Below, piece after piece: positions 36,692 through 55,463 of a DNA stretch of 64,000 nucleotides. The stretch is from contig NZ_QPJK01000013.1 of assembly GCF_003337555.1 (NCBI RefSeq), forward strand, positions 62,001 through 126,000, given 5' to 3'. This stretch comes from Pseudorhodoferax soli. Lineage in GTDB: Bacteria; Pseudomonadota; Gammaproteobacteria; Burkholderiales; Burkholderiaceae_C. The number at the start of each line of letters is the position of its first letter. The first letter of the stretch is position 1. The notes under the pieces were generated by a model. The model was given only the letters and a program-made list of their open reading frames with translations. It was not told the origin of the DNA and ran no database searches. Both the position numbers and the translations under genes were made by a program.

Positions 36692-39600
36692 GGACGATGC
36701 TCCGCTTCAGGTCCTTGGAGGGCACGAACTGTGCGTTGCCCTGGTCCGCGAGACGCTCGACCTCGTCGAGCACGCGCTTCATCGGCGTCGAGGTCCTTGT
36801 TCTCCACATGGACGATGAGCTGACGATCACGAGGCGGTCTTTTGCGCGGGACATCGCCACGTTGATCCGCTCGGGATCGGCCAGGAAGCCGATGTTCTCG
36901 TTCGTGTCATTGCGTACGACAGACAGGACGATGATCCGGTTCTCCTTGCCTTGGTAGCTGTCCACTGTGCCGACCGTGAATTGGTCGCGCAGTTTGGAGG
37001 CCCAATCGGCTTGCTCGAGCTTGCGGCGGATGAGGTCCCGCTGCGCGGCATACATGGCGATGATGCCGATGATCGGCTCGTCGTCGCGCCGCTCCTCCAT
37101 GACTTCCTGAATGAAGTCCGTCGAAGTAAGGATGGCGCGGACGACATCGACCACCGCAGCTGCCTCGGCCTCGTTGACCAACGCGCCTTCATGGGTGCCC
37201 GCTGCACGGTGGAAGCCGAGCCGAGCTTGGTCCTGGGTGTCGATCCAGACCACCTGCGAAGCGAGGAAGTCGGGCAGCATCGCGTACTCGTCACCTGGAG
37301 GCTTGCGACCGACTTCGAGCGCGTCGGCGTAGAAGCAATGCGAGACCAGCCGGTTGATGTGTTCTGCCATCCGGTACTGGACCCGCAGAGTCCGGCCGAC
37401 GGACTTGCCGTACTTTGAAGAGAAGGCTCTTTGAAAGTTGTTGATGCGGCGGAAGTCCTTGCGCGAGACGCCCAGCAACGCCGAGGCCTGCTCCTCGACA
37501 GCCCGAGGGTAGGAGGGTGGCAGTTGCAGGTGGTCACCGACCAACAGGACGCGCTTCCCCGCCTGCATTGCGACCACGAGCTCCATTGGGGAGGCGCGCG
37601 CCGCTTCGTCCACGATGACCCAATCGTAAGGTACTTCCGTGATGCCGAGCGCTTGCTTGCCGACGCCGACGCAGGTGCCCGCCACGATCTTGGAGGAGCG
37701 AGCGAGAAAGGAGGTGTAGTTGGAACGAGGGTTGCGCAGCACTTGGGCGAATTCGGTTGACAAGCGCGCAATCTGTTCGAGGCGGGCGCGCTTCGAAGGA
37801 CTCGGCGAACCGTTCTGCGTGGCCAACTCGTCCAACTTGGCCTCCAGCAAAGCCTTGAGGTGGCCAACATCGTTGGCGCTTGGCGGCGCTTCAATGCCGA
37901 ACTGACGCGCGGCCACCTCGGCGAACACCTCCCCGAGGCGCTTAAGATGCTCGGCCGCCGACGTATCCCCACCTTCGCCTTCTTCCACGGCAAGGGTCAG
38001 GCGCTCGATGCCTTGCATCAGGGGCCCCAACGTGATGTGAAGATCTGTAGCGGTTCGAACATACTCGGGAGGGAGACCCATGGCGACGCCGACGGCGCGT
38101 ACCCTTTCTTTGACCTCCGCATCGAAGCTCTCCCGGTAGCGTTGGCGCAGTGCGTCCTCCTGGATGCTGCGAAGTCCCGGAGACACCATCGACGGCAACC
38201 CGACGCGGACCATGGGTACCTCCATGCGCGAGGCCCGCAACGAATTGGACACCTTGAGCATCGCGTTGTTCACCGCTTCGTGCGATTGGCTGACGAGCAG
38301 GATGTTGCCGGCCAGACCGCGCGAGAGCAGCAGATGGACGAAAGACGCGATGAACTTGGTTTTGCCCGTGCCTGGAGGGCCCTGGAGGAGTGAGATGGGC
38401 CCAAACGACAAGGCTGTCCGCAGGGCCTCCTCCTGAGACGCGTTGAGCTCGTACTCTCCAAGGTCCTCCAGCACGATCGAAGCGTCTGGTTGCGGTGCTC
38501 GCTCCACCTCGGGGTCGAAGAAGTCGACCAGGGATGGAATGAGACCTCCGCCAGCCAGAACGCGCTTCATGGCCGCGACGCGTCGCTCCGAACCGACCTT
38601 CTCGAACGTGCCACGTACATGGAGGGTGTCGCCCGGCTTCGGGGCGAACAGCATGCTTTTGGAGCGCACCTTCATCAGGTCTCGTCCCAGGTCTGGCGAT
38701 ACCCTGCCGATGGTGAACCAGCGTTCGTTGCCGTCGCTCACGTCGAGGCGCCGTTCCAACAACTCGATGGTCTCACCCTCCGTGAAGTCGAGAACACCAC
38801 CTTCACAGTCGTAGGGGATGAGCCACTCGCCACTTCCTGGGGGCACTTGCTTGACGCCGGTCCGCACGGTAATCGTGGTGACGTTCATCTCATCGGTGTC
38901 GGCCAATGCTGTCCAGAAGGCTCGGGCTGTCATCGCGTGCAGCAGTGCCGCGTCGGCTTGCCGTGCGTAGGGGTCTCTGGCACGCCCGTCGGTTGATCCG
39001 CCCGCCTCCAAATCGTCAGGGACACGCGCGCGGTACAACTGGAACAGCAGGCCTGCCAGGGTGTCGGCGTTGTGCTCCTCGCCGAACGCAACCTGGATCT
39101 CAGCGTTCAACGTGAAGTTCTTGCGGCGAAATGCACTGACGAAATCGATGTGATCGATCTCCTTGACGGCGGCGTCGAGCACAGCCTCTTGAGCTGGGTC
39201 GTACATGATGTACAGCTCCTGCTTTGTGCCGACGACGTAGAAGCGCACATGACCAGTCTCTGCATGCAGTGTCGCGCGCACGGAGAACTCGCCGTGGTTG
39301 GAGATCAGATCCAGCGATGGGGGGCCACCTCGGCCGCGCCGCTTGAGCGTGGCCTTGAAGGACGCAGGCGCGCGGGACTTGGGGTGAAGCTCGTCCTGCA
39401 GCGTTTCCGCCAACAGGTCCAAGGGAGGTGGAGTGTCCACCAAGTCGAGTGCGCGTGCGATGTCGCTGCGGGTGCTGGAAAACTCCTCAGGGATGAGGTC
39501 AAGGACCAAGGCGCACACGGCGAACGCATCGCGGTGCAAGGGCGACGCCCCTTCCAGTGCTGGTGGCACCGCGCCGATGGTGATGCCTTCGTCGCCGTCG

Positions 39601-41555
39601 GCGCTCAGATCGGGAATGTCCACCAGTACGACGCCAGGCGCCTCGCCATCGGCCGTTTGCGGGACGACGATGTTGTCTGCTTTGACATCGCCATGGGAAA
39701 GTCCGAGGACATGGAGCCGCCGAACCGCGTTCAGAAGCGCCAGCGCCAGCATCGCCCGCAACCGTCCGTCGCTGTTGGCTTCCAACCACTCGGCAAGCGT
39801 GGAGCCTTCGATCCATCGCGTGACCAGCATCAGACCGAATGGACTCAGGCCAAAGTCCAGGACCTCAGGTGATGCGTCGAAGCCGGATTGGCGCAGTGAT
39901 CGCGCCTGTTGAAGGAACGCCAGGAGGCGCAGGTTGCGTGCCGGGTACTTCTGGTCGTACTTGAGCTGGGGCCAGCACTTGACCAGGACACGCACTCCAT
40001 CCCGTTCCGACTCGTAGACCGTCTTCGTTGACGCCGGCGAGATCATGCGTTTGCACTGGAGGGTCATGGGGCTGGCTGTGGTGTCGTACCCGTCGAAATC
40101 TGCCTCGCAGATGTCGGGGCCGAACTCCACAGCCAGGCAGGCGTTGAGTGCGTCCAGCGCGTCGGATGCGCTGCGGTAGCGTGCAGCTGGGTCAAGGCTC
40201 ATGGCTTGTGCGTACCATGGCGCGAGAGCGGGGACGTTGAGCGTTGCGGTACCGTCGTAGACAGGCACTTGGTTGCGTCGCTCAAGTTCGCGGCCTTCCA
40301 TCAACTCGTAGACCAACACCCCAAGTAGGAATGCATCGCGTGCGAAGGCGTCGGTGGTGCGCGCCTCCTGGCGACCGCCTCCATCTTCGGGTAGGTCGAT
40401 GGAACCCGTTTCAAGCTCGATCCGGTGAACCCCCACGGTGTGGGCTTGGGGCACGCGGGCTGCTGCAAACGTTGACAGGATGACGCGGGAGGGCTCCAGC
40501 ACCCAGAGCGTGCGCCTGGTGATGTCCCGGTGGGCGATCCCGAGTGCGTGCAGCTTGGAAAAGCGCGCCAGGATGCTTTTGGCAAGGGCGCGCCTGTCCA
40601 GCTCGTCCATGTCGGCGTTGCGTGCCAGATGCTCGCCGAGTCGCTCAATGCCAGCGGGTAGGCGGTATGCTTCGACGAAGTTCGTGGTGATGTCGTCCGC
40701 GGTCGCAGAGCCGATGGGTTCGAGCAGGTCTTCGTGCAGATCCGATGCCTGAACACGGAGCTGCTCGTTCAGCCGCAGCTCTCGCAGCCCGATTGTTTGG
40801 CGCTCGACCGTGGAGGTGCCGCCCGCAGCAAGCACCTCGAAGTTCCACTTGCGTAGCAGCGCTTTGGAGCTTCTGCTCTCCTGGTGCTCGGCGAGAAACT
40901 CCGACCAGATCTTGCGCGGGTGGACGTAGTCCGCGTGGTCGTCGATCTGCTCGAAACCGTACAGCACGGTGCGGCGCCGGAGCACTGCAGGGTTGTTGGA
41001 CGAGAAGATGGCGTTGTACTGCTGCCTGTTTTGCAGGGGGTCCGCCGACCGATAGAGGAAGTTGGGCGGCGTGTCGGGGAAACGCTTCTTGTAGCGGCCG
41101 ACGTCGGTCGCGACATGCACGAACTCGTTGAGCGTGGAGACAAAGCGGCGTTGCTCGTCAGGAAATCTGACCAGGCGGCATTTGGGATGGCACAGGACAA
41201 CAAGCGTTTCGATGAAGGGAATCTTCATCGTGGGGTACTTCTCGCGGATGAAGCTCTTCAGCGCCCGAACCTTGTTGTCCGTCACCTCGACCGGTGAGGG
41301 CGTCGCGTAGCCGCGGTGGAACCACTGGCCAGAGGAGTACTCGATGTCGCCAGACCAGTTCTTCAACTCGACCACCAGGATCCGGTTTGTGGTCAGAAGC
41401 AACAGGTCGATATCCAGCGGCAGTTTGGAGCCGCGGGTGAGCAGCCGAAAAGCTGCGTAGGCGCCCCAGGTATCCGGCAGCTTGGTCTCGAGTTCGCGCA
41501 GCGTGGCGTGCTCCACCTCCAAGACTCCCCGGGCGCTGAGGTAGTTGATTCGCAC
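36684..41555 (-). CDS. NERD domain - two kinase-like domains - SF1 helicase fusion, candidate defence protein
   Basis: A 1623-residue protein; I take the GTG at 41555 as start because GGGAGG lies 8 bases upstream. In order: a NERD nuclease-related domain (residues about 5-130, with LDIDLLLLTTNRILVVELKNW supplying the D...ExK pattern); a first kinase-like domain (about 210-470) with AHRDITRRT near 342 but no DFG; a second (about 530-760) with SHGDVKADN near 621 and VDIPDL; a linking region; and an SF1 DNA2/Upf1-type helicase from about 1040, with GPPGTGKT near 1057, DEAA near 1315, QYRM near 1391, DSYQGKEN near 1533 and NVAMSRAKDRL. NERD-kinase pairs are known in PglW of BREX/Pgl defence, and such helicases occur in several defence systems. 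Coupled to a winged-helix gene. A DNA-targeting, phospho-regulated antiphage complex is the best guess. Confidence 0.88.
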   Translation of the reverse strand: MRINYLSARGVLEVEHATLRELETKLPDTWGAYAAFRLLTRGSKLPLDIDLLLLTTNRILVVELKNWSGDIEYSSGQWFHRGYATPSPVEVTDNKVRALKSFIREKYPTMKIPFIETLVVLCHPKCRLVRFPDEQRRFVSTLNEFVHVATDVGRYKKRFPDTPPNFLYRSADPLQNRQQYNAIFSSNNPAVLRRRTVLYGFEQIDDHADYVHPRKIWSEFLAEHQESRSSKALLRKWNFEVLAAGGTSTVERQTIGLRELRLNEQLRVQASDLHEDLLEPIGSATADDITTNFVEAYRLPAGIERLGEHLARNADMDELDRRALAKSILARFSKLHALGIAHRDITRRTLWVLEPSRVILSTFAAARVPQAHTVGVHRIELETGSIDLPEDGGGRQEARTTDAFARDAFLLGVLVYELMEGRELERRNQVPVYDGTATLNVPALAPWYAQAMSLDPAARYRSASDALDALNACLAVEFGPDICEADFDGYDTTASPMTLQCKRMISPASTKTVYESERDGVRVLVKCWPQLKYDQKYPARNLRLLAFLQQARSLRQSGFDASPEVLDFGLSPFGLMLVTRWIEGSTLAEWLEANSDGRLRAMLALALLNAVRRLHVLGLSHGDVKADNIVVPQTADGEAPGVVLVDIPDLSADGDEGITIGAVPPALEGASPLHRDAFAVCALVLDLIPEEFSSTRSDIARALDLVDTPPPLDLLAETLQDELHPKSRAPASFKATLKRRGRGGPPSLDLISNHGEFSVRATLHAETGHVRFYVVGTKQELYIMYDPAQEAVLDAAVKEIDHIDFVSAFRRKNFTLNAEIQVAFGEEHNADTLAGLLFQLYRARVPDDLEAGGSTDGRARDPYARQADAALLHAMTARAFWTALADTDEMNVTTITVRTGVKQVPPGSGEWLIPYDCEGGVLDFTEGETIELLERRLDVSDGNERWFTIGRVSPDLGRDLMKVRSKSMLFAPKPGDTLHVRGTFEKVGSERRVAAMKRVLAGGGLIPSLVDFFDPEVERAPQPDASIVLEDLGEYELNASQEEALRTALSFGPISLLQGPPGTGKTKFIASFVHLLLSRGLAGNILLVSQSHEAVNNAMLKVSNSLRASRMEVPMVRVGLPSMVSPGLRSIQEDALRQRYRESFDAEVKERVRAVGVAMGLPPEYVRTATDLHITLGPLMQGIERLTLAVEEGEGGDTSAAEHLKRLGEVFAEVAARQFGIEAPPSANDVGHLKALLEAKLDELATQNGSPSPSKRARLEQIARLSTEFAQVLRNPRSNYTSFLARSSKIVAGTCVGVGKQALGITEVPYDWVIVDEAARASPMELVVAMQAGKRVLLVGDHLQLPPSYPRAVEEQASALLGVSRKDFRRINNFQRAFSSKYGKSVGRTLRVQYRMAEHINRLVSHCFYADALEVGRKPPGDEYAMLPDFLASQVVWIDTQDQARLGFHRAAGTHEGALVNEAEAAAVVDVVRAILTSTDFIQEVMEERRDDEPIIGIIAMYAAQRDLIRRKLEQADWASKLRDQFTVGTVDSYQGKENRIIVLSVVRNDTNENIGFLADPERINVAMSRAKDRLVIVSSSSMWRTRTSTPMKRVLDEVERLADQGNAQFVPSKDLKRSIVHA

Positions 41556-41786
41556 AGTTGAAACCTCCCGATGTCTTCTTGTTGACGTTCCAAATCGCTC
41601 GGAACGGCGGGCGAGGGCCCATGAGCCAACCGAAAAGCATACGGGATCTGCAATGCGCCGCCACCGTCCTGCGGTGGCGCTTCGCAGCCTGGGCCTGGAG
41701 CTGCTCCCTGAGACTGTTTCCCGGGCGCGATGCGCTGACCGGTCGTCCGCGCCAATCGCAGCCAGGAAGTCCTTCGTACTAGCTCC

Positions 41787-42053
41787 GCGCCAGACCTGGG
41801 ACATCTCCACCCAACTGCTGGAGGTACAAGGCCGGTTGCGCGCCGTTCCAGCCAGCGTATTGCACTCCAGTTCGCCACAGGAACGCTTGATGTTCGTTGT
41901 GCGCCACGGGATCTACAGCCCTTCGACGCAAGAGATGTGCGCGCTTCTTCAGGAGCGCATTGACGGGCGTAGTGCGATCAAGATCGGTGCTGGGCATGGG
42001 GTACCCTCGCCGACTACTGTGCCTACGCGACCGTAGGTTCTTCGCCTGGTACC
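41787..42053 (+). pseudogene. Possible remnant of a methyltransferase-like gene
   Basis: One frame reads RQTWDISTQLLEVQGRLRAVP, then LMFVVRHGIYSPSTQEMCALL and IDGRSAIKIGAGHGV. The last, IKIGAGHG, resembles the SAM-binding motif I of methyltransferases. After GTA (42001-42003) the sensible reading moves frame at two extra C bases and continues LADYCAYATVGSSPGTHLIYDW. No start codon or ribosome site is clear, and the product would be far shorter than an enzyme. The rest of the gap 41556-42063 shows no other gene. Confidence 0.35.
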
Positions 42054-42922: not shown

Positions 42923-43357
42923 ATGAAGAACCGCCGTACCGCTGCAAAGTCGTTGATGGTTGAGCCCACTCAGACGCTGAAAGAGATTGATGTTGAGATC
43001 GCCAAGCTGAAAGAACGCGCGGCGACGATCGTGGCCCACGAGAAAGCAGGCGTCATTGATCGCATCAAGGAAGCAATTTCTTACTACAGCATCACGGCGG
43101 GCGAGTTGGGGTTCGGTGGTGCGCGGCCATCGCCCCGTCGTGTGAAGTCCGCCGGTGTCGCACCTTCAGGACAGGCGCCGGCAGAAGGTGCAGAGGTTTC
43201 TTCCTCGAAGGCGCCTGCCAAGAAGCCGCGGGCTGGCGCTGGCGGCATCAAGTTCAAGGACGACGCAGGCAATGCCTGGTCTGGCTTTGGTCCAAAGCCG
43301 AGGTGGTTCACAGAAGCACTGGCCAGTGGAAAGACGCCAGAGGAGCTCAAGGTCTGA
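42923..43357 (+). CDS. H-NS family nucleoid protein (Burkholderia type)
   Basis: A 144-residue H-NS-like protein. The N-terminal coiled coil (LKEIDVEIAKLKERAATIVAHEKAGVIDRIKEAI, residues about 19-52) serves oligomerisation. A Pro/Ala/Lys linker follows, and the C-terminal DNA-binding module reads IKFKDDAGNAWSGFGPKPRWFTEAL, with GFGPKP in place of the enteric GRGRTP. Such proteins bind AT-rich foreign DNA and silence it. ATG 42923 lacks a clear ribosome site; ATG 42956 is an alternative. Island-borne copies often moderate expression of the island's own cargo, here possibly the flanking defence genes. Confidence 0.88.
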   Translation: MKNRRTAAKSLMVEPTQTLKEIDVEIAKLKERAATIVAHEKAGVIDRIKEAISYYSITAGELGFGGARPSPRRVKSAGVAPSGQAPAEGAEVSSSKAPAKKPRAGAGGIKFKDDAGNAWSGFGPKPRWFTEALASGKTPEELKV

Positions 43358-43401: not shown

Positions 43402-43656
43402 TCAGGCTCCTAGGGCCAGGATGTCGCTGAAGTTGGAGTTGACCCGCATGCCCGCTCCGGCGGATGCGGATGCGGATGCGGATGCGGATGCGGATGCGGA
43501 TGCGATTGTGGCCCGCGCTGTCTGGAAGGATGGACAGACAACCAGGTGGAGCGAAGTGTCATACCGTCCGAACGTGTTGGGCACTTGGTCATGCCATCCA
43601 GGCTCCGCGTCGAGTTTGCGCAACGCGCCGCCGCTGGTTTCCGTTTCGAAGATCAC
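43402..43656 (-). CDS. Small hypothetical protein with an Ala-Ser repeat encoded by a hexanucleotide tract
   Basis: An 84-residue frame from GTG 43656, with GGGGAG five bases upstream. The first 50 residues look like a real protein (FETETSGGALRKLDAEPGWHD, NTFGRYDTSLHLVVCPSF). The tail then runs into an Ala-Ser repeat made by the 6-base tract and ends RVNSNFSDILALGA. No family is recognised. The plus-strand frame across the same DNA would give Ala-Asp repeats and is less convincing. Confidence 0.4.
   Translation of the reverse strand: MIFETETSGGALRKLDAEPGWHDQVPNTFGRYDTSLHLVVCPSFQTARATIASASASASASASASAGAGMRVNSNFSDILALGA
43460..43501. repeat. Hexanucleotide repeat, 7 units of GCGGAT
   Basis: Seven perfect GCGGAT units followed by one decayed unit (GCGATT). 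It is the second 6-base tract in this island, the other being CTCGGA/G at 27299. If translated on the minus strand it encodes an Ala-Ser run; copy number changes would keep the frame. Confidence 0.9.
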
Positions 43657-43805: not shown

Positions 43806-46800
43806 TTAATTCGGGGAGTCGTCGGCGATCCGATCGCTCAGCCATCGCTGGACCCAGGGTTGGCGCTTGATGTCACCAAGGTCATCCAGTACCGATAGGG
43901 GCAGGCGATGAACTCGGGCGGCAAGAAGCTGACGTGCTGGGTGCTGCTCCTGGAGCAGATTCAGGATCGCCTGGGCAGCCTCGGCGTCACGGTGGTGGAG
44001 GCGGCAAGCTCCGAGAACGCCGAGCGATCGATCCGCGCTGGAGTGGACCATACGCTCGCAAAACGCGACAGCCGTGTGCAGCGGAGCACGGTCGCAAACC
44101 AACACGGTCGCTGAAGTCGCGAGCGCAGCCCCACGGCTCAGGATCCAGTCCGGCGTGAACGGCTCCAGCAGTTCAGGTTCGATGGAGTTCGCCGCGACCA
44201 GCGCATCAAGGGCGTCAAGCCTCATCCCGGGCGGCTCACGATCAGGACTGCAAACGATTGTGAGCGTCTTCTGACGCGCCGTGGGTGAGCCGTGTCGGGC
44301 CGCCATTTGCAAGCAATCCTGGCGGAGTCGCCGATCTAAGGTGGTCCTGGCGAGATTGAGTAGAAAGTCGCCGACCTCGTCGTTCAACGGCGCGTACGCC
44401 GCCAGCGCCAGCGCTGCCTCTCGTGCGATCGGAAAGGAATCGGGATCGTTATGGTACGGGTCGGCGTCGGACCACGTGTCGCTCATCCGATGCAGCAGCG
44501 CAGCGAGGTGCAATGGGTGAGGCTTCTTCGCGAGGGCGCGCACCAAAACCAGTCGAACCCTGTGTCCGGGGTCGCTGCACAGCGCTAAAAGTTCGGCAGA
44601 CAACGGAGCGTCTGCCCGGTTCGCGAGGAAGTCGAGGGCGACGGCGCGGGCATTGGCACGGCAATGCCGCAGGGCCAACTCCATCGCCTCCTCATCTCTG
44701 ATTGCAACCGCCGCGCGCGCGGCCTCCTCGGCGACATCAGCGTCCGTGGTTTCTTTCAGCCAGCGCCGAAGATGCTCGCTGCGCACCCCAGAGTTCTTGA
44801 GGAGGAGAGGGACCACAACGGAAAGAGCGCGAGGCGGCAGGGTCTCTGCTGCCTCCTGGAGAACCACGACGGCTTCGGGGCTCAGTCTAGCCGGTCGCGA
44901 GCCATTGCGAAGCAGCGCTTTGCCGATCTCCAGGTATGGGGCACGCAGCGCCTGGACAAGGCACGGCAAGCCTGCCATGTGGCTCAGCATATGGCGCTTA
45001 CGCGTGCCCACAAGCTCGCCGAGGAGAGCGACGCGCGACGCAGCTGTTGGACAGGCGTTGAATACCTCGCAAAGCAGGGTTCGATCGACAGCCATGGCGC
45101 AATCCATTGCGGCGTGGCTGTCGAACTGATCTGGAATGCCTACGCCAATGGCTTGCTTGAGCGACTCGCGAAAATCCTGGTGCCAGTGATTGCGCAAAGC
45201 GCGCCACGCTTCGCATTCATTCCCGCTCGTCCGTGTCGCTGCGACCATCGCAGTGAGCTCCTCGAGGCAGGGCGCCGACGTGCCCTCGGCGCTCCCGATT
45301 GCCCGTGCCCAATGGAAAGAGAACGCAGGTTCAGTCCTTCGATGGTGCTGTGCCAATGTCCTCCACTGGCCAGCAGTGCGGAGCGCCTTGACGTAGTGTT
45401 CGATGATGGTCCCAGATGCGAAGCCCTCGTCATCATCGCCAGAGTTGTAGTACTCCTCCACCGCGTAGTCGCATTCGCCATCATCGATGGATCGCCGCGT
45501 TTCCCACCTGCGCGCACGACTTGCCTCGTCGCCAGCAAGATCATCGAGTGCCTCATCGAAAACACACTTGAATGCGGTGAGATCGCGCGTTGCTCCGACT
45601 AGGACTGGCTCGAAGTTCGATCCGTGCCCCATCCCCACGAGCCGGTGAGCGGCATCGAGATATGCATCGTCGAGTCCCTTGGCAATTCGGTCGAGCGCGG
45701 CCGGGAAGTCCGAGTCGTACGATCCACGTTCGCTAGCAAGCTGTTCGCGGACGAAGCGGTCGGCGATGGCAAATGACCGCGGATCATTGGAGATCTGCTC
45801 ATACCATTCATCGGAAAAGGTGGGAGCCGTCCATTCATCCATGAAGTACGCCACACCGCGCCGGACACTCGTCAGAAGCCAACGGGCGAGTTCGGACGGA
45901 TTGGATGCAGCGCTGCCAACATCACTGGCAAGTTCGAGTAGCTTGGAGAAATCCGCGCCTGGATCGACAAGCGCTGCATCGAGCCATTGATCGACTAGGC
46001 GCTGGGCATGCGCGGGAACCTCCGGGGTCATGTCGTCGCCGCTGAGCTTTGAGACGAGGCGCCGACCTTCGCCGATCGCCCTCGCAGCCGTTTCCATCCC
46101 CCATTCGAGGATCGGGTCCGGGAGTGTGGTCAATGCGCTGAGCAGAGCCGTGAACGCGGGCTCTTTGTCCAGCCACTTCCCTTTCAGATGTGTCTCGAAT
46201 GCGGCGCGGACGCTCGGGTGTGCGAAGGCCACCGTGGTGGCCGGCTGGCGCAGATGGCGCGCGGCGATCAAGGTGTCAACCAGTCTGTCCAGGCCCTTAG
46301 CGAGCGACGGTTCAATGCTCCGCAGTCGCCGCACTAGTGCGAAGAGCTGCGTGCGCTCGAATGAACCTCGCGCCGCCAGCAGTCCCCAAATGACGGCGGA
46401 CTGACTGCTCTCATCTGCATGGGCCAGAAAGCGGCAAACCACTGCCTCAACCGCATCTCGATGCGCCATGTCGATAAGCCGATGAAGCCACTGTCCATCG
46501 TTCTCACCCGCATTCCGGTCGGAAATAAGCCCGGCGAAGAACCGGTCGATCTCCAACGGCTTCTCAAGTTTGCTCAGGGCGTGGTTTTTGAAGCCAAGCG
46601 CTACGGACTGCAGCTCCGGAGGAAGAAGGTCCATTCGCCTGTCGTATATCTCCGCAAGCCGCCCGTCGTGGTAGCGATCTGCCTCGAGTTGCACGATCCA
46701 TGGATCGAACTCTTGGCCGGCCTGAGCGCTGCTCAGCATGTCGCTTCGGGACGTAACGACAAAGCGGTTCCCCGCATTGGCACCACGCAACATGTGCGGC

Positions 46801-47819
46801 AGTTGGTCGGTCCATGTCGCCGAGCCAACGCGCAGGCTGTTCTGACCCCATGGGTCCTCCAGGTAGAACAGCTTTGGTCCGGTCTGTACGAGTTGGCGGA
46901 TGCTGGATGGGTCGCTGTTCGGATCCACCACGACGATATCAAGCGCGCCATTCTTCCTGCGGGCCCGATCGCAAAGCGCTTGTGCTGCCAGCGTCTTGCC
47001 GGTACCCGACGATCCCGCAATCACGACTGCGTGCTTTCTGTCGAGCTGGCGAACCATGTCGGGATAGTTCGACGGTGGGACGAAGGCGTCAAGCTCCGCA
47101 ACGCTCGCCAGGAATCCTCCATGAGCACGAATCGTGGCAAGAAGATCGTTGAAGGCCCAGGCCCCAGGCGAGATGCCTGCCATCCGGCTCTTTGCTTCGG
47201 TGCGGAGCGCGGCGAGGCACTGGTCTTGACGGTTCTTCGGAACTCGCAGGATGGTGGTCAGTACATCCTCCAGTTCGAAGGCAAGAAGCCTCCGGGTCAA
47301 GCCTGAGTAGATGGCAACTCGCCCATCCGGCGCCTCTGGCAGGATCGTGCGTAGAGAGTGGGGGAAAGCTCGGCGCCCTGGGTGCTCCTCGAAATCTTCG
47401 ACAAGGAGATCGCGTGCTACGCCCGAGACATCAGCATTGGTGACCAAAAGATAGCGTACGTGCGGGTCGCGCAAATGGTCTTTGGCTGGCGTGCGGCGCT
47501 TTCCATGCTTGAGCAGTTGGATGAATGCGTCGATCGACCAGGGCTCTCCGTTGCGAAGCTTCACCTGCATGACCAGTCTGTGGCCGGCACCAAGAGGCGT
47601 CATCGCCTGGACGTGGCCGGGGTCGTCGGCGGCGAGTTCTACTTCGATGTCTTCTGTGCCCGCCGGCTCCAGCGTGATGCGTGAAGCCGACTTGCTGACA
47701 AAGAGGATGCGCAACGCTGCCAGGATGGAAACGTCGACTTGATAGGCATAACCCGCTAGGGCGGGCCGAGCGCCAGTCCTGTCTTCTTGGGCTCGTTCGG
47801 AGTCGGCAGGCTCGATCAT
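43806..47819 (-). CDS. STAND-type NTPase (nSTAND3-like) with nuclease-like N-terminus, Avs-like defence candidate
   Basis: A 1337-residue protein from ATG 47819 (GTG 47828 is an alternative; neither has a strong ribosome site). The N-terminal 200 residues hold GYAYQVDVSILAALRIL, then EPAGTEDIEVEL and VMQVKLRNGEPWS, a pattern of PD-(D/E)xK nucleases of the Cap4/DUF4297 or Mrr sort. The NTPase domain follows: HAVVIAGSSGTGKTLAA (Walker A, about residues 265-280) and KLFYLEDPWGQN (Walker B, about 318), the latter typical of nSTAND3. From about residue 450 on the protein is helical and repeat-like (VLQEAAETLPPRALSVVVPLLLK; RVRLVLVRALAKKPHPLHLAALL), suited to sensing a phage protein. The three-part order matches Avs antiphage proteins. 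No partner gene is coupled. Confidence 0.82.
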   Translation of the reverse strand: MIEPADSERAQEDRTGARPALAGYAYQVDVSILAALRILFVSKSASRITLEPAGTEDIEVELAADDPGHVQAMTPLGAGHRLVMQVKLRNGEPWSIDAFIQLLKHGKRRTPAKDHLRDPHVRYLLVTNADVSGVARDLLVEDFEEHPGRRAFPHSLRTILPEAPDGRVAIYSGLTRRLLAFELEDVLTTILRVPKNRQDQCLAALRTEAKSRMAGISPGAWAFNDLLATIRAHGGFLASVAELDAFVPPSNYPDMVRQLDRKHAVVIAGSSGTGKTLAAQALCDRARRKNGALDIVVVDPNSDPSSIRQLVQTGPKLFYLEDPWGQNSLRVGSATWTDQLPHMLRGANAGNRFVVTSRSDMLSSAQAGQEFDPWIVQLEADRYHDGRLAEIYDRRMDLLPPELQSVALGFKNHALSKLEKPLEIDRFFAGLISDRNAGENDGQWLHRLIDMAHRDAVEAVVCRFLAHADESSQSAVIWGLLAARGSFERTQLFALVRRLRSIEPSLAKGLDRLVDTLIAARHLRQPATTVAFAHPSVRAAFETHLKGKWLDKEPAFTALLSALTTLPDPILEWGMETAARAIGEGRRLVSKLSGDDMTPEVPAHAQRLVDQWLDAALVDPGADFSKLLELASDVGSAASNPSELARWLLTSVRRGVAYFMDEWTAPTFSDEWYEQISNDPRSFAIADRFVREQLASERGSYDSDFPAALDRIAKGLDDAYLDAAHRLVGMGHGSNFEPVLVGATRDLTAFKCVFDEALDDLAGDEASRARRWETRRSIDDGECDYAVEEYYNSGDDDEGFASGTIIEHYVKALRTAGQWRTLAQHHRRTEPAFSFHWARAIGSAEGTSAPCLEELTAMVAATRTSGNECEAWRALRNHWHQDFRESLKQAIGVGIPDQFDSHAAMDCAMAVDRTLLCEVFNACPTAASRVALLGELVGTRKRHMLSHMAGLPCLVQALRAPYLEIGKALLRNGSRPARLSPEAVVVLQEAAETLPPRALSVVVPLLLKNSGVRSEHLRRWLKETTDADVAEEAARAAVAIRDEEAMELALRHCRANARAVALDFLANRADAPLSAELLALCSDPGHRVRLVLVRALAKKPHPLHLAALLHRMSDTWSDADPYHNDPDSFPIAREAALALAAYAPLNDEVGDFLLNLARTTLDRRLRQDCLQMAARHGSPTARQKTLTIVCSPDREPPGMRLDALDALVAANSIEPELLEPFTPDWILSRGAALATSATVLVCDRAPLHTAVAFCERMVHSSADRSLGVLGACRLHHRDAEAAQAILNLLQEQHPARQLLAARVHRLPLSVLDDLGDIKRQPWVQRWLSDRIADDSPN

Positions 47820-47930
47820 AGGGCGCACATTAGACTCGATCGGCCGCTCCTGGGCAGGGCAATGGCGGCCAAGGGCGACGGCTGCGATTTCAAGTGAAGG
47901 CGTACTCTGGAATAGATCGAAACATGTGGG

Positions 47931-48605
47931 GTGGATGGCAACTACGCCCCGGAAGTAGGGAACAGCAAACCCACATGGCTGGACGTCTCACCGCCGCTGC
48001 GGTTCTTACGGCTGGCCCGAGCCGTACGGCGCGTCGGAATGGTGCCGGTCGACATACTCTGTGATCTGACGCCGGCCAAGACGCGTTCCTACTGCGCCGA
48101 TCTGTTGGACGCGGCAGGACTACCGCAGTCCGCGCCTCGTCGCCTGCCACGCCTGCCGAGGCACGCCCGGGAACTTTCGCCGATGGGCTCACTGCGCCTC
48201 CTCATTCACGACGCGCACGTTGCTTCGACGCACTTGCACCGGCTCATGCCTGCGGCGCTCCTAGCTCCTCTCGAGACCGCGATCCATCGCGCCGACGAAT
48301 TGCATGAGGGCCCGCTTAAGGAATACAGCCTAGCCAGGCTGCCTCCACTGATGAGCGTGGGCGGTCGGTCCGTCCCCAGTGGGGTCGATCCCACGCGCTT
48401 CGCGGAGTGCGCGGTCGCGGGGGCATACCAGCGGCTGCTCTGGCAATTGGTCGGAGATACCGAGCCACTGAACTTCGCCGGACTTCCTTCCGATGGCGCA
48501 GGACTGGCAGTTGCGAGGCGAGCTTTGGCATTGCTTCGGGAGCGCACACAGCGCCCTGTGGTGATGCGGCTCGGTGATGACGAAGCAGGTGCCCTTGCCG
48601 GCTAG
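47931..48605 (+). CDS. Hypothetical protein
   Basis: A 224-residue protein from the GTG at 47931, reading VDGNYAPEVGNSKPTWLDVSPPLRFLRLARAVRRVG. The first half is basic and helical (ILCDLTPAKTRSYCADLLDAAGLPQ), which could bind DNA. The second half is neutral with SLARLPPLMSVGGRSVPSGVDPTRFAECAVAGAYQRLLWQL. No family is recognised, and the start is uncertain because GTGGG is the only upstream signal. It is divergent from the STAND gene (111 bases) and convergent with the integrase, so it may be a regulator belonging to the island's end. Confidence 0.55.
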   Translation: MDGNYAPEVGNSKPTWLDVSPPLRFLRLARAVRRVGMVPVDILCDLTPAKTRSYCADLLDAAGLPQSAPRRLPRLPRHARELSPMGSLRLLIHDAHVASTHLHRLMPAALLAPLETAIHRADELHEGPLKEYSLARLPPLMSVGGRSVPSGVDPTRFAECAVAGAYQRLLWQLVGDTEPLNFAGLPSDGAGLAVARRALALLRERTQRPVVMRLGDDEAGALAG

Positions 48606-48750: not shown

Positions 48751-50058
48751 TCAAGCGGTCGTGACAAGAGCGGATGCATCCGTTCTCGCCGCAAGCTCGG
48801 CTTGCGCCGCCGCTTCGATGTAGTCCGAGACAACCTGCCAACCCGCGCGTAGCTGTGCCTCGCCCTTGCCCACGTAGTGGCCGAGAGTGACGTCGTTGCT
48901 CACGGTGTGGTTCAGCACACGCTTGAGAACGCCTCCGGACACGATTTCCTCCGCGATGCTCGCGAAGGTCGAGCGCAGCCCATGTCCTTGAACCTCAGTG
49001 CCTGCCGCCGCGTTGATGCGTGCCAGTGTCTTGCGGGCATCAACAACCTCGAACAGGGGCTCGTCTGGCTTGCGACCATTGGCGCAGCGCTTGGCAATCT
49101 CAAGCGCCTGTCGAGACAGCAGGAGCTTGTGGTCGGTCCGGTTCTTCGTGTCAACCAGGGTGATGCTCGCGGCCCCTACGTTCAGGTCGCCGACCTTGAT
49201 GGGCTGGTACTCATATCGCTTGTCACCGTGAATTTCGACTCCACGGCAACCAGTGAGAAGCTGGAACCGATAGTAGTCGGCAGCAACTCGGTCGAAGGCG
49301 CACGCCGCCAGCCACCATGCCCCGAGCTTCTCGGCGGGGAGGGGGGCTGGCTTGCCCCGCGGGGGCGCCAGGATGATCCGATCACGACCTGCAGTCTCGA
49401 TGCTCAGCGGGCTATTCGGGATCAGTACGCCGTGCCATCGCAGCACCGCTCTCAGGACCTGCATGGCATACGTCGCTTCGCGCTCCGAACGCTTCAACTG
49501 CAGCTGGTAGACACCGCGGATGTCCTCGGGTGTGAGACTGGAAAGCAGTTTGTGGGCAACCGGAAAAAGAAGGCCGTCGTTGAACTTCCGGCCTTTGCTG
49601 GACTTGCCGCCTGGCTCGACCATGGCCAAGTAGTCAGCTTTCGTCCGGGCCTTCAACGCAAGGCCGTCCTTGGCGCGTCGCTTCTTGTCGACGTACTCGC
49701 GCACAGCGTCCTTTACGGTAAGGCCGACCTCCCGCTCGGCTTTTGCGCGCAGGGCGGCCTCTGCCTTCAGCCGCGCCTCTTCCTGCGCTGGCCAATCGAC
49801 TCCATCGCGAGCCAGGGATCGAATTCTCAGAGCTTCGGCGCACGCCGCAGCGAGACGGATCTGGCCAGGGCCGTCGCCATAAGGTTGGGGCAACCGATAT
49901 TGGCGCTCATCGGTTGAACCCTTCACTGTGTATCGGACCAGCAAGGTCCGTACGCCGTCGATCGCTACACGCAAATGTAGGCCTCGATCCAACAGCACCT
50001 TGAATGGCTTGGCTTGAGGCTTCAGTGCCTCGATTGCACGAACGGTTAGCAGCGGCAT
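48751..50058 (-). CDS. P4-type tyrosine integrase of the left element
   Basis: A 435-residue integrase starting MPLLTVRAIEALKPQAKPFKV at 50058 behind GGAG. The N-terminal DUF4102 arm-binding domain (to about residue 90) is followed by the SAM-like core-binding domain and the catalytic domain: Arg in LLTGCRGVEI, HGLRSTFAS, and the tyrosine in TLGHYVGKGE. P4-type integrases insert elements at tRNA 3' ends. The gene starts about 160 bases from the tRNA-Lys fragment and is transcribed away from it, the usual arrangement, so it is the likely integrase of the island to the left. It looks intact. Confidence 0.92.
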   Translation of the reverse strand: MPLLTVRAIEALKPQAKPFKVLLDRGLHLRVAIDGVRTLLVRYTVKGSTDERQYRLPQPYGDGPGQIRLAAACAEALRIRSLARDGVDWPAQEEARLKAEAALRAKAEREVGLTVKDAVREYVDKKRRAKDGLALKARTKADYLAMVEPGGKSSKGRKFNDGLLFPVAHKLLSSLTPEDIRGVYQLQLKRSEREATYAMQVLRAVLRWHGVLIPNSPLSIETAGRDRIILAPPRGKPAPLPAEKLGAWWLAACAFDRVAADYYRFQLLTGCRGVEIHGDKRYEYQPIKVGDLNVGAASITLVDTKNRTDHKLLLSRQALEIAKRCANGRKPDEPLFEVVDARKTLARINAAAGTEVQGHGLRSTFASIAEEIVSGGVLKRVLNHTVSNDVTLGHYVGKGEAQLRAGWQVVSDYIEAAAQAELAARTDASALVTTA

Positions 50059-50220
50059 GTTGGTTCTCCGTGTCCGACTGGTGTCCGAAAAATCGGCGGA
50101 TTGCACGACTTTCGGTGAGACGAGGTGGACTGACGGAGAGACTATAAGCCGTTGATTTAAATAAGGAAAGTTTGATTTCAGGAGGTCTCACGCCGTCCCA
50201 TGAAAACCCATGAATTCCAG

Positions 50221-50266
50221 ACTCTTAATCCGTAGGTCGAGTGTTCGAGTCACTCAGGGCCCACCA
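50221..50266 (+). other. 3' fragment of tRNA-Lys(CTT), attachment site
   Basis: The sequence runs from the anticodon loop (CTCTTAA, anticodon CTT) through a T arm (GAGTG, loop TTCGAGT, CACTC) to the 3' acceptor strand AGGGCCC, A and CCA. The 5' half is absent: bases before 50221 do not pair with the TCCGT of the anticodon stem. So this is a duplicated 3' end left by site-specific integration, and serves as attachment site. It lies between two integrase genes, 160 bases from one and 92 from the other. Confidence 0.82.
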
Positions 50267-50284
50267 AAATTAAGCAATGAAATC

Positions 50285-50325
50285 AAGCGCTTAGGTCGAA
50301 AGACCTAGGCGCTTTTTCTTTTTCC
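50285..50325 (+). terminator. Intrinsic terminator behind the tRNA-Lys fragment
   Basis: AAGCGCTTAGGTC (50285-50297) pairs with GACCTAGGCGCTT (50302-50314) around a GAAA loop, with a single G-U pair, followed by TTTTTCTTTTTCC. It is a textbook terminator for plus-strand transcripts, probably that of the original tRNA-Lys gene carried along with the attachment site. Confidence 0.88.
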
Positions 50326-50358
50326 GTCTTCGCTTTGTGTAGTTCACGTGTAATCGCG

Positions 50359-51558
50359 TCAAGCCTTGTGCGTCAGTCTGGCCTGCAGCTTATCCATTGC
50401 TGCCTGGATGTGTTCACCATCCTGATGGGCGTAGCGTTCCACCATCTGCAGTGTCTTGTGACCGCTGATTCGCTTCACGGTCGGCAGGTCCACGCCGGAC
50501 TGCACGAGATGGCTTACCGCGGTGTGCCTCAGTGTGTGCCGCACAACCTGGGCCGGATCTAAGCCGGCAGCTGTTGCTGCCGTACGGAATGGCTTCTCTA
50601 GCGCAACGGTGTGGCCCGACTTGGAAAGGTCGGACGGGAAGAGCCATGGCGATTTGGCCGGCACAGAGTCGCGCATGTACTGCTCCAAGAAGCCGGCCAG
50701 TCGGTCAGTGATGGGCTGCTCACGCGCCCCGGCCTTCGCTTTGGGCAGGTAGATCATCCTGCGGTCAAGGCGGATGTTTTCCTTGCGCACCGACAGCACC
50801 TCGGACTTGCGCATAGACGTCTCCAGCGCGATCAGGGCGAACGGGTACAGCTGGCCGTTGTCCGATGCCATGCAGGCAGCCAGAAAGCGCTGTACCTGCT
50901 CGGCGGTCAGATAGACGATGCGGCCGGTGCCTTCCGCCATCCTGCGCATCCGTGGCCTGGCAACGATCCACTCCCACTCGACAGCTTGGTTGAACAAGTG
51001 CGACAGGGTGGCAATCTCTCGATTGACCGTGCCAGGCGAAGTTGTGCGGCCTGTTTCCCTCGCCACACGCTTGCCGCTGCGCCAGTCTCCCCCAGCCTGC
51101 ACCACCTGGGCCAGGCGGTGCTTCTTGTACCGCTCGATGTCGAATGCGACGATTTTGCCCAAGGGCTTGCCGCTGAAGAAGGGGACCAGGTGCTGCTGTA
51201 GGTGCTGCTCTTTGGTATCGATGTTCTTGCCGCCTGACTCCTTCAGGCGGGCGATGTACTTGACCGCTGCATCGTTGAAGGACAGCACTACCTTGCGACC
51301 CTTGGGCAGCGCCAGACGGTCATGGCGGGCGTCCGTCCTAGCCTTCTCAATGAACTCCTCTGCTTGGCTGCGGGTGACACCTTCGGACTCCCGACCGACC
51401 ACCCGGTGAATGCGCTGGCCGTCCACCATGACATTGACGGTGTAGACGCCGTCGCCGTTTTCGAGCCGCTGAAAGCTGATGCCGTGCTCCATGACCTTCT
51501 GGCCCGGCTTGAGCTTCCGCAGCTCGCGACGATCCAACTTCACGAACGACTTCGCCAC
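50359..51558 (-). CDS. Phage-type tyrosine integrase of the right element
   Basis: A 399-residue integrase starting MAKSFVKLDRRELRKLKPGQ. The N-terminal arm-binding part is followed by a core-binding domain (FNDAAVKYIARLKESGGKN ... TVNREIATLSHLFNQAVEWEWI) and the catalytic domain: Arg in ETSMRKSEVLSVR, HTLRHTAVSHLV, and the tyrosine in GHKTLQMVERYAHQD. It ends 92 bases from the tRNA-Lys fragment and points toward it. It is unrelated to the P4-type integrase on the other side. Its start lies two bases after the stop of the RHH-type gene, so both are in one transcript. Confidence 0.92.
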   Translation of the reverse strand: MAKSFVKLDRRELRKLKPGQKVMEHGISFQRLENGDGVYTVNVMVDGQRIHRVVGRESEGVTRSQAEEFIEKARTDARHDRLALPKGRKVVLSFNDAAVKYIARLKESGGKNIDTKEQHLQQHLVPFFSGKPLGKIVAFDIERYKKHRLAQVVQAGGDWRSGKRVARETGRTTSPGTVNREIATLSHLFNQAVEWEWIVARPRMRRMAEGTGRIVYLTAEQVQRFLAACMASDNGQLYPFALIALETSMRKSEVLSVRKENIRLDRRMIYLPKAKAGAREQPITDRLAGFLEQYMRDSVPAKSPWLFPSDLSKSGHTVALEKPFRTAATAAGLDPAQVVRHTLRHTAVSHLVQSGVDLPTVKRISGHKTLQMVERYAHQDGEHIQAAMDKLQARLTHKA

Positions 51559-51559
51559 G

Positions 51560-52186
51560 TTAGGCCCCAGCGCCGGCTTGAACTTCCTGCTTCTTCGCCT
51601 CCAGCCACGCCATGTCCTTCTTGTGCTTGGCGTCTAGCTCGGCCATTCGCTTTTCGATGCGTTCTAGAGTGACAGCCCCCCCAGTTTCGAACTCCTTCTT
51701 CATAGCCGCTACGGTGGAGAGAATCTCTGCCATTGGCGTGTCATCCTCAGATGCCAGCTTGAGATAGTCCCAGTACGGACGAAGTGCCTCTGCTTCCTCT
51801 TCGGCGTGGTCCTCTTCGCTAGCTCCAGGCCGGCGCAAGGCTGCTCCGATCAGGATCGACGCCTCCTTCGCGGCGCGCACTAGACGCTGCTGCGCGACGT
51901 CAAGCAAATGCGGGTAGAGCTTATTGAGGCGCGCCAGTCGCGCCGGCTCGTTGATAAACCACAACAGTTTGGCAGACGACGCCACCGTCACGTCGTGTTC
52001 ATGGTCCAAGTAGACGGAACTCAAGCTCGCTTCGACTGCCGACTCGATGTAGCTGGATAGCGTGCGCCGCTGGACTGCCGCAGCGACTTCGGCAAGGTAA
52101 CGAAGCCGTGGATCAAGGCGGACGGTGACGGTTTCGGACCGAGACGTCTTTGCCCCGCCGCCTTTGCGCGCTTCTGCTTTCGTCAT
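51560..52186 (-). CDS. Ribbon-helix-helix-like protein with coiled-coil tail
   Basis: A 208-residue protein starting MTKAEARKGGGAKTS at 52186 (the frame opens earlier, at 52210). SETVTVRLDPRLRYLAEVAAAVQRRTLSSYIESAVEASL is a ribbon-helix-helix pattern near residues 16-55. The C-terminal half is a charged helix (MKKEFETGGAVTLERIEKRMAELDAKHKKDMAWLEAKKQEV). It likely binds DNA as a regulator of integration or of the divergent lysogeny region. It is directly upstream of the integrase gene on the same strand. Confidence 0.68.
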   Translation of the reverse strand: MTKAEARKGGGAKTSRSETVTVRLDPRLRYLAEVAAAVQRRTLSSYIESAVEASLSSVYLDHEHDVTVASSAKLLWFINEPARLARLNKLYPHLLDVAQQRLVRAAKEASILIGAALRRPGASEEDHAEEEAEALRPYWDYLKLASEDDTPMAEILSTVAAMKKEFETGGAVTLERIEKRMAELDAKHKKDMAWLEAKKQEVQAGAGA

Positions 52187-52253
52187 GTTCTGGGTTACTC
52201 CGTAGGTCAATGGTTCTCGAATGTGCTCGACCGCATCTTACCGCGCTCATGAG

Positions 52254-52320
52254 TTGACTTTCAACACATGTTTTCCGCTATAGTTGCCGAAAGGCCGCAA
52301 TTGTGCTGACTTTGAACACA
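52254..52320. promoter_or_regulatory. Promoter and 14-bp direct repeats between the divergent early genes
   Basis: TTGACT (52254-52259) and TATAGT (52279-52284) form a -35/-10 pair with a rather long 19-base spacer, pointing toward the AlpA-like gene. The words TGACTTTCAACACA (52255-52268) and TGACTTTGAACACA (52307-52320) are direct repeats with one mismatch, 52 bases apart, one on the promoter and one near the start. They probably bind a regulator, perhaps the RHH- or AlpA-like protein. Confidence 0.6.
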
Positions 52321-52333
52321 CGAAAGGACTGTT

Positions 52334-52570
52334 ATGGCAACGACACCAGAGGTCTTGGTGCTTCCAGATGGCCGGATGGATCGGAAGAACGCAAGCAAGT
52401 ACCTGGGCAACGCACCCAAGACGCTGGCGCAGTGGGCGGTCAAGGGGGTTGGGCCCAGATTCATTAAGCGTGGTCGCGTCTGGTACTTCAAGGAAGACCT
52501 CGACCACTGGCTGAAAGCCGGAGCGGCAACAAGCACCGCTGCGGCTCGCGCGATGGAGGCGGTGCAGTGA
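52334..52570 (+). CDS. AlpA/excisionase-like small DNA-binding protein
   Basis: A 78-residue protein with an AlpA/MerR-like helix-turn-helix: DRKNASKYLGNAPKTLAQWAVKGVGPRFIKRGRVWYFKEDLDHWL. AAAGGA lies six bases before ATG 52334. Such proteins regulate or act as excisionases for satellites and prophages, often switching on integrase. It is divergent from the RHH-type gene and first in the rightward replication operon, which continues by a TGATG overlap. Confidence 0.8.
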   Translation: MATTPEVLVLPDGRMDRKNASKYLGNAPKTLAQWAVKGVGPRFIKRGRVWYFKEDLDHWLKAGAATSTAAARAMEAVQ

Positions 52571-52845
52571 TGGCCGCACAAAAGCAAACGCCGGGGTGGA
52601 GCCCGGCGAATGCACCTACGAGAGAGCAGGAGAAGGCGATTATGGGCGGCGCCGGCACCGGCGACAAGTCCTTTGCCAACCTGCAGGCCCAGTTCGCAAG
52701 GGCCGGCCACCAACTGCACCGCACCAATGCCGAGGACGGCCAGGTGCGCTATTTCTCCACCAGATGGGGATTGGTCCGCGAGCTGGGCAACCTTGATGAG
52801 GCGCGCGCCTTCCTCGCGCAGATCCAGATCGGCGGTGCGCAATGA
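52570..52845 (+). CDS. Small phage protein of unknown function
   Basis: A 91-residue protein starting MAAQKQTPGWSPANAPTREQ. The middle reads NLQAQFARAGHQLHRTNAEDGQVRYFSTRWGLVRELGNLDEARAFLAQI, a compact alpha/beta module that I have seen near phage primases but cannot name. It is coupled on both sides: TGATG with the AlpA-like gene and ATGA with the primase-like gene. Confidence 0.65.
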   Translation: MAAQKQTPGWSPANAPTREQEKAIMGGAGTGDKSFANLQAQFARAGHQLHRTNAEDGQVRYFSTRWGLVRELGNLDEARAFLAQIQIGGAQ

Positions 52846-53300
52846 GCTTCGACCGCGAACGCCTGCCCGACCCGATCAGCTACTTCGAGTCCGAGGGCTT
52901 GAAGCTGACCGGCCGCGGCGCCTGGCGCACCACCGCATGCCGCTTCCACGACGGCAGCGACTCCATGCGCATCAACACCAAGACCGGCGGCTGGTGCTGC
53001 ATGGCCTGCAACGCCAAGGGCGGCGACGTGCTGGCGTACCACATCGAGGCCCACGGCCTGGAGTTCATCGACGCCGCCAAAGCCTTGGGCGCATGGATCG
53101 ATGACGGCAAGCCGGCCCAGCAGCACAAGCCGTCGCCGCTGAGTCCGCGCGCTGCGCTGCAGGTGCTGGCCGCCGAAGGCAACCTCGTCGCCATCGCGGC
53201 CGGCAACGTCGCCCGCGGCGTCGCGCTGGCTGATACCGACCTGGCCAGGCTGATGACGGCATCGAACCGCATCACGCGTCTGGTGGAGGCCTTCGCATGA
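52842..53300 (+). CDS. CHC2 zinc-finger primase-like protein
   Basis: A 152-residue protein carrying only the zinc finger of a DnaG-type primase: TTACRFHDGSDSMRINTKTGGWCCMACNAKGGDVLAYHIE, where Cys-x2-His and Cys-x2-Cys bind zinc. The catalytic TOPRIM part is missing; the remainder is a helical tail (RAALQVLAAEGNLVAIAAGNVARG). It probably works with the RepA-like ATPase encoded just behind (ATGA overlap) to start replication of the element. Split primases like this are common in small phages. Confidence 0.82.
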   Translation: MSFDRERLPDPISYFESEGLKLTGRGAWRTTACRFHDGSDSMRINTKTGGWCCMACNAKGGDVLAYHIEAHGLEFIDAAKALGAWIDDGKPAQQHKPSPLSPRAALQVLAAEGNLVAIAAGNVARGVALADTDLARLMTASNRITRLVEAFA

Positions 53301-54951: not shown

Positions 54952-54954
54952 GCC

Positions 54955-55413: not shown

Positions 55414-55463
55414 GCAAAGAGATGCGGCTTCCTATCGTGGTATTGCACGCACGAAGGAAGCAC

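Follow-up and report, generated by a model that had tools for sequence, protein, structure and literature searches.

We analysed a stretch of 64,000 nucleotides from Pseudorhodoferax soli (contig NZ_QPJK01000013.1, positions 62,001 to 126,000; hereafter the window), which carries a long gene for a protein with a predicted Cap4-type nuclease domain, an nSTAND3 NTPase, and a HEAT-like helical arm. The complete Cap4-nSTAND3-HEAT gene lies on the minus strand at 43806..47819, as do all of its parts described below; it starts with ATG and encodes ~1,337 residues, the stop codon being included in the coordinates. The first-pass annotation had quoted several motifs from this open reading frame (ORF), and the open frame is present, with all of the motifs in its translation. 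An in-frame GTG at 47828, three codons before the ATG, is an alternative start, from which the open frame (43806-47828) encodes 1340 amino acids. The ATG (47819) is codon 4 of the GTG frame and was aligned with the start methionine of most rows in an alignment of 11 proteins, which makes 43806-47819 the likelier extent of the gene. Residue numbers throughout were counted from the GTG at 47828. When the region was simulated 300 times with an order-1 Markov model, the longest stop-free run was 524 codons, with a mean of 264. The G+C fractions at the three codon positions of the ORF were 0.70, 0.48, and 0.69, and the differences from a close relative (L017) were 0.22, 0.19, and 0.50 per codon position, being highest at the third. 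By its length, codon-position composition, and third-position-biased divergence, the ORF is a gene, and it is under purifying selection.

The N-terminal half and the C-terminal arm of the protein were modelled as separate structures. Residues 18-690 were modelled on 57 aligned proteins, the set A2 (mean predicted local distance difference test score, pLDDT, 81.8; predicted template modelling score, pTM, 0.71). In the predicted structure, residues ~22-238 (47115..47765) form a mixed helix-strand domain. VIA-align superposed this domain on 8zue_A, a chain of an E. coli Hachiman entry (Z 13.5, 180 residues, 3.0 Å, 16% identity), and on 9ux7_C, from a LmuAB-DNA complex (Z 13.2, 178 residues, 3.2 Å, 15% identity). 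Conservation was assessed in an alignment of 73 full-length proteins, the window copy included, from 93 loci; of the 20 not aligned, two were duplicate records and 18 had proteins shorter than 1290 amino acids. Residues Y29, Q30, E54, D60, Q88, K90, and W97 had a rounded frequency of 1.00 in this alignment, and E54, D60, Q88, and K90 were also invariant across the 57 rows of A2. These four outline a putative active site (E54, D60, Q88-x-K90; 47559..47669), and the E-D-QxK set would fit the PD-(D/E)xK type. A predicted Cap4-type N-terminus is thus supported by fold and conserved residues, and DUF4297 models matched the window protein weakly (E 0.01 and 0.022). The first-pass annotation had expected a nuclease fold of Cap4 or Mrr type. 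Structure prediction returned a nuclease fold and the Cap4 part stood, whereas an Mrr identity is not favoured by the sequences, since Mrr_cat matched 1 of 57 N-terminal domains (E 0.03). The loci and the window together gave 10,829 six-frame ORFs, which we searched with a profile of the domain: of 101 matches at E ≤ 0.05, 99 reached 1e-20 or better and the other two were from L078 and L080, and no separate nuclease gene stood out.

The nuclease domain is followed by a STAND (signal transduction ATPases with numerous domains) NTPase of the nSTAND3 type (PF20720; ~residues 249-450, 46479..47084), assigned by Pfam and fold matches. The Pfam match had an E-value of 2.8e-17 over residues 249-373, and nSTAND3 was found in all 57 members of A2. 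The Walker A motif GSSGTGK spans residues 272-278 (46995..47015), and a probable Walker B-type strand with the DPWG signature spans residues 320-328 (46845..46871). Across the 73 proteins the Walker residues were unchanged, D325, P326, and G328 had a frequency of 1.00, and W327 was at 0.99. Over the NTPase and the helical part that follows it, VIA-align gave Z 15.7 for Apaf-1 (3shf), 14.2 for the NRC1 NB-ARC, and 13.1-13.3 for NLRP3, and Foldseek rows for the N-terminal model included SAMD9, an AVAST5 filament (E 7e-6), and NOD2, all within E 4e-6 to 8e-6. NACHT (PF05729), looked for as the mark of bNACHT proteins, was not among the matches of the window protein and was weak in 8 of the 57 relatives (best E 0.0026). 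The whole window protein had no match at E ≤ 1 among PDB sequences. An nSTAND3 NTPase is reported for PaAvs5 in part of PMC12931631, and our open-access literature search found no further relevant literature on nSTAND3 or PF20720.

The C-terminal arm (residues 545-1340, 43809..46196), which we propose as the sensor, is all-helical in its predicted model, with 47 helices listed (mean pLDDT 92.6, pTM 0.86). The best listed structural row for it was alphaRep 4zv6_A (Z 15.2 over 269 residues); the PP2A entry 9mf5_A reached Z 11.6 over 287 residues, and more alphaRep, PP2A, and designed armadillo entries were among the best listed. The part best covered by solved structures is a HEAT/ARM-like solenoid at residues ~1011-1307 (43908..44798), seen in structure and profile matches. 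Foldseek returned a U2 snRNP chain, karyopherins, CAND1, and PP2A (best E 9e-5), which we take to be HEAT/ARM proteins, a profile search matched the arm to alphaRep (E 4.1e-4), and 3 of 18 plasmid records with relatives carried the protein name "HEAT repeat domain-containing". The model shows an arm that is HEAT/ARM-like by fold, a likeness that speaks for the arrangement and does not bear on ancestry. Avs1-4 have an N-terminal nuclease as effector and a TPR-like C-terminal arm. The arm was the least conserved part of the 73 proteins, with a mean column entropy of 2.6-3.0 bits at residues 841-1040, compared with 1.6-2.2 bits over residues 1-560, and it held a conserved patch at residues 1081-1120. 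The order of nuclease, NTPase, and long helical arm given in the first-pass annotation is therefore supported.

Spread and gene neighbourhoods of the family

The genome of P. soli itself carries one full-length paralogue, 28% identical to the window protein; of 284 candidates 150 were scored, and none of these was a third nSTAND3 exceeding the curated cut-off. Within the order the family was rare, being present in 2 of 399 genomes, its own included. A profile of the arm found its own genome alone among 369 of the class and one more, in addition to its own, among 398 of the phylum, the latter match falling within a 1393-codon open frame. No swapped effector was seen with the arm profile in this small sample, in which the N-terminus of that 1393-codon frame was not read. 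Relatives occurred in 18 plasmid records, 5 of them at ≥ 80% cover, and a species-genome scan gave at least 79 loci, a floor because the 100 pattern matches contained 89 relatives, of which 80 were retained. The nearest relatives, at 63-65% identity, were from Sphingomonas, Methylobacterium, and Mesorhizobium, and partial matches came from Edaphobacter and a Planctomycetota metagenome-assembled genome. No match was found in 50,697 phage records, no relative in 600 pattern stretches of viral contigs, and no match in E. coli genomes by a DNA search that is insensitive at such divergence.

Membership in the family was marked by co-linear full-length homology, with the nuclease and NTPase residues unchanged in all 73 proteins. 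A quick tree of these proteins, made without bootstrap, showed bacterial families intermixed, as expected of horizontal transfer; outside Pseudomonadota it held one Myxococcota and one Acidobacteriota member. These results show a rare, mobile family, patchy through horizontal spread. Short or split copies were also seen (L012, L013, L064, L078, and L080, from Rhizobium, Sphingomonas, Acinetobacter, and Bradyrhizobium). Domain swaps, considered for seven loci with matches to one end only (L068, L074, L078, L080, L091, L012, and L013), were rejected: L068 and L074 were ordinary full-length members and the rest were short frames.

Genes next to the relatives were identified with a home-made codon-usage caller. 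Over 82 loci, the nearest called gene was co-directional and no more than 60 nt away in 6 of 73 cases downstream and in 17 of 75 upstream. A fixed partner needed by the family was rejected, the commonest neighbour clusters occurring in 6 of 82 loci, and the gene mostly stands alone. We then compared flanking with control proteins against PADLOC. The flanking set comprised 119 of 125 candidate nearest neighbours (up to 1100 amino acids) from 68 loci, excluding plasmid loci and several near-duplicates; one of the proteins, L064:10220-11950, probably represents the second part of a split receptor copy. Controls were drawn from 20 stretches in five genomes belonging to the same order; 112 of the 130 proteins called there were scanned, representing 19 of the stretches. 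At E ≤ 1e-15, PADLOC returned 111 families for the flanking proteins and 2 (ThsB and mad3) for the controls, a family tally that differs from a gene count because several models can match one protein. LmuB (4), PDC-S73 (4), and GajB (3) were the commonest, and Aga, LmuA, HerA, and TerY were also among the 25 families listed for the flanks. Annotated neighbours on plasmids included Piwi and PD-(D/E)XK proteins and a CBASS (cyclic-oligonucleotide-based anti-phage signalling system) phospholipase in one case, an N-6 DNA methylase in a further one, and elsewhere a nucleotidyltransferase with a SLATT protein; another plasmid record had little except toxin-antitoxin genes near the relative. The analysis shows that the neighbourhood of the family is defence-rich.

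In the window, the gene is placed between a Mokosh system and two tyrosine integrases with primase-, capsid-, and tape-measure-type genes after them. The first-pass annotation had seen no partner beside it, which holds as far as checked: the next downstream gene called from codon usage is H-NS-like and runs in the opposite direction (42923-43357), and no gene was called upstream between 47828 and 48751. Two overlapping mechanical ORFs fall in this interval, 47890-48192 (100 amino acids, same strand) and 47931-48605 (224 amino acids, other strand, no Pfam match). A related stretch, with 39% identity to the H-NS-like gene, precedes the paralogue immediately (L002, 844-1212), and no other locus searched matched the H-NS-like gene; such genes are perhaps silencers kept near receptor genes. 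Two genes beside the paralogue had no PDB match. A short hexamer-type repeat occurs at ~43460-43515, downstream of the receptor gene, and reads as MRMRMR and DADADA among the six-frame translations.

The Mokosh system (35114-41810, minus strand) consists of MkoA (PADLOC E 0, 1472 bits) and MkoB (E 3e-116), whose frames overlap by 8 nt; MkoA has NERD and AAA_11/AAA_12 helicase-type domains, and its kinase-type matches were weak. An AbiEii-type nucleotidyltransferase gene was found at 17761-18675 (E 1.1e-41). With these two, the receptor gene may fairly be called the third defence-type locus of the island, as had been claimed. On its other side, 48751-60932 holds the two tyrosine integrases, then CHC2 zinc-finger, AAA_25, Phage_capsid, and tape-measure genes, a prophage- or satellite-like element. 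Farther off, 27658-34721 encodes a ParB_N protein, an Integrase_1-type recombinase, an actin/ParM-like protein, and an HU-type DNA-binding protein, a gene set as in plasmid-derived or integrative elements.

An overlapping gene pair in one sublineage

At eight loci (L020, L021, L022, L025, L030, L066, L073, and L084), from Rhizobium, Methylocystis, Oceanicella, Phenylobacterium, and Pseudomonas, another nSTAND3 gene of ~770 codons lies directly upstream of the Cap4-nSTAND3-HEAT gene. This partner matches PADLOC PDC-S73 and has a weak Mrr_cat match (E 9.7e-4) just under the cut-off of that model. In 6 of the 8 loci an ATG in the right frame for the receptor gene is present 14 nt inside the upstream gene; at the L066 and L073 junctions the same ATG is present and one base is changed further on. 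The seven full-length paired members make up one side of a branch with a Shimodaira-Hasegawa-like approximate likelihood ratio (SH-aLRT) support of 100. An LmuB-like gene was seen upstream of the pair in L020, L021, L025, and L030; in L022, L073, and L084 the pair is followed downstream by an SMC-like gene of distant relationship.

Close Mrr-nSTAND3 relatives were found without a Cap4 partner, in the stretch read, on plasmids of Roseibium and Mesorhizobium, and in Methylocella an 82-residue stretch of the Cap4 partner is kept beside the Mrr-nSTAND3 gene. On these cases we rejected a requirement of the Mrr-nSTAND3 gene for the Cap4 gene and lowered the reading of an obligatory pair; for the Mrr-nSTAND3 gene, pairing is optional. 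The window gene is outside the paired set and has no Mrr-type partner, and a search of its own genome, run without a positive control, gave no match to an Mrr-type protein.

Known systems and weighing of the readings

Several known systems share parts of this architecture. Avs3 (AVAST type 3, 8dgc), like the window protein, combines a nuclease, a STAND NTPase, and a long arm in a single chain; the solved Avs3 chain has 2028 residues, compared with ~1,337 in the window protein, whose arm is HEAT/ARM-like. The Avs3 nuclease is given as a Cap4 domain in part of PMC11291478. VIA-align placed 372 residues of 8dgc_A on model residues 1-442 (Z 13.6, 13% identity), and the root-mean-square deviation (rmsd) of 21 Å indicates that the domains are arranged differently. 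Avs5 (SIR2-STAND) shares the nSTAND3 NTPase; its effector is SIR2, whereas the window protein has the nuclease fold instead and no SIR2 model among its 18 Pfam matches at E ≤ 1. The TPR, Sel1, or PPR repeats that a portion of PMC12931631 reports for the PaAvs5 arm are likewise unlike the HEAT/ARM-like rows obtained here. The Cap4-type nuclease domain is common to Lamassu LmuA (9ux7) and HerA-DUF4297, the DUF4297 protein having a Cap4-like domain according to part of PMC12198126. In both, the nuclease is a separate subunit with a partner ATPase, whereas in the window protein a single chain carries it together with a STAND switch and arm of its own; no SMC-like match, as would suit Lamassu, was found in the genes scanned on either side. 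Apaf-1, plant NB-ARC proteins, and NLRP3 share the fold of the NTPase and the following helical part (Z 13-16). They carry other effector and sensor domains, and the window protein differs from them by its nuclease and HEAT-like arm. The profile of PDC-S73 (Mrr-nSTAND3), a PADLOC candidate defence protein, matched the NTPase of the window protein (E 6.8e-8); PDC-S73 has ~770 residues in the relatives seen here, an Mrr-like start, and a shorter arm. Among the open-access papers listed for STAND NTPases in connection with HEAT repeats, nucleases, or Avs we found no description of a Cap4-nSTAND3-HEAT family, nor was anything on it found in passages of PMC7159879.

The window protein probably serves in anti-phage defence; its family is rare, has no name so far, and is like Avs in design. 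We think it quite likely that it is a self-contained receptor of the nucleotide-binding leucine-rich repeat (NLR)-like kind, in which ligand binding on the arm would drive nucleotide-dependent assembly and nuclease activation. At rest, the STAND NTPase would hold the protein closed. An invader-made ligand, from phage or plasmid, would bind the HEAT/ARM-like arm, upon which the NTPase would exchange nucleotide and the protein would oligomerise. The Cap4-type nuclease domains could then meet as active dimers and cut double-stranded DNA, ending the infection with or without the cell. Every step beyond the domain assignment, namely activity, oligomerisation as the switch, the arm as sensor, DNA as substrate, and the outcome for the cell, we infer from the analogy with Avs and with the dimerisation-dependent DUF4297 nuclease. 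Excerpts of PMC12198126 and PMC12931631 describe Avs tetramers that form on recognition of phage proteins and activate the N-terminal nuclease, and a part of PMC11291478 describes DUF4297 nuclease activity as dependent on dimerisation.

Several observations weigh against this reading. Pfam Cap4_nuclease reached 3 of 57 N-terminal domains (best E 0.012), thin sequence support, so that the Cap4 label rests on fold and residues; Tox-GHH and TOP6A-Spo11 did so in 4 of 57 each. The N-domain profile had two matches among PDB sequences, neither of them a nuclease, and model residues 56-82, including D60, are of low confidence. The PADLOC LmuA model matched 43 of 57 relatives, in a region not shown, and did not match the window protein. 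Many plain AAA+ ATPases reach the same Z of 13.6 as the Avs3 alignment, whose rmsd is large. Generic, too, are the solenoid matches of the arm, for which reason the arm was a weak test of whether the C-terminus resembles a non-defence regulator, a check named in the first-pass annotation. Finally, the flanking PADLOC tally is inflated by multiple models, and the 4 flanking proteins that match PDC-S73 are the partner of the paired sublineage itself.

The protein might be a true branch of Avs, tetrameric and with an arm that reads large terminase or portal as in Avs1-4. Its domain order and effector type are those of Avs3, which aligns over the N-terminal model, and terminase and portal are the Avs1-4 ligands in parts of PMC12931631 and PMC12724215. 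We nevertheless regard this as rather unlikely. No Avs-named model was among the PADLOC (E ≤ 0.01) or NCBIfam (E ≤ 1) matches of the window protein or among the 25 of 47 PADLOC families listed for the 57 relatives, and both libraries presumably hold Avs models. The NTPase is nSTAND3, the type reported for Avs5, on which terminase and portal had at most modest effects, another phage protein being the activator (PMC12931631, in part), and the arm is best matched by HEAT/ARM proteins. The Avs-like label of the first-pass annotation survives for the overall design and for the N-terminal part that aligns with Avs3, with the NTPase now specified as nSTAND3 and the arm as HEAT/ARM-like by fold. The best reading is an unnamed Cap4-nSTAND3-HEAT family of NLR-like proteins, not assigned to Avs1-5, and the interpretation first given is partly supported.

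A sensor of DNA states (ends, damage, plasmid or replication intermediates) in place of phage proteins, as in Hachiman and possibly Lamassu, seems unlikely, a little more so than the Avs branch. Alignment of the nuclease domain with LmuA and a Hachiman-entry chain, the DNA-damage sensing described for Hachiman in part of PMC12278908, and the LmuB-like genes near relatives all speak for it; yet no SMC-like or helicase gene is directly beside the window gene, though the helicase-bearing MkoA is 2 kb off, and most relatives have no close co-directional neighbour. That the window copy is in frame but a non-functional passenger of the island is highly improbable: several relatives are indeed short or split (L012, L013, L064, L078, and L080), whereas this copy keeps the conserved residues and differs from close relatives at third positions. 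We give hardly any credence to a MalT-like STAND transcription regulator or other housekeeping switch. The MalT-system entry 8bob_C does align to the NTPase and following helical part (Z 15.6), but the N-terminal nuclease fold with unchanged catalytic-type residues, and a rare, patchy, plasmid- and island-borne spread beside defence genes, argue against it.

The Cap4-nSTAND3-HEAT protein remains a variation on a known design. As such it is a sequence-distinct, rare, and mobile addition to bacterial NLR-like receptors, joining a HEAT/ARM-like arm to a Cap4-type nuclease and an nSTAND3 switch. If the self-contained receptor is active, its ligand would be new and could be sought by the same assays that served for terminase and portal, and the single gene suits laboratory tests. 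It is an unlikely extension that the invader ligands recognised by the HEAT-like arm form a class read by no known Avs, and that the overlapping Mrr- and Cap4-type nSTAND3 receptors of the sublineage work as a pair, one sensing and the other executing, in parallel to the paired NLRs of plants. The overlapping gene pair makes paired NLR-like receptors in bacteria a directly testable question.

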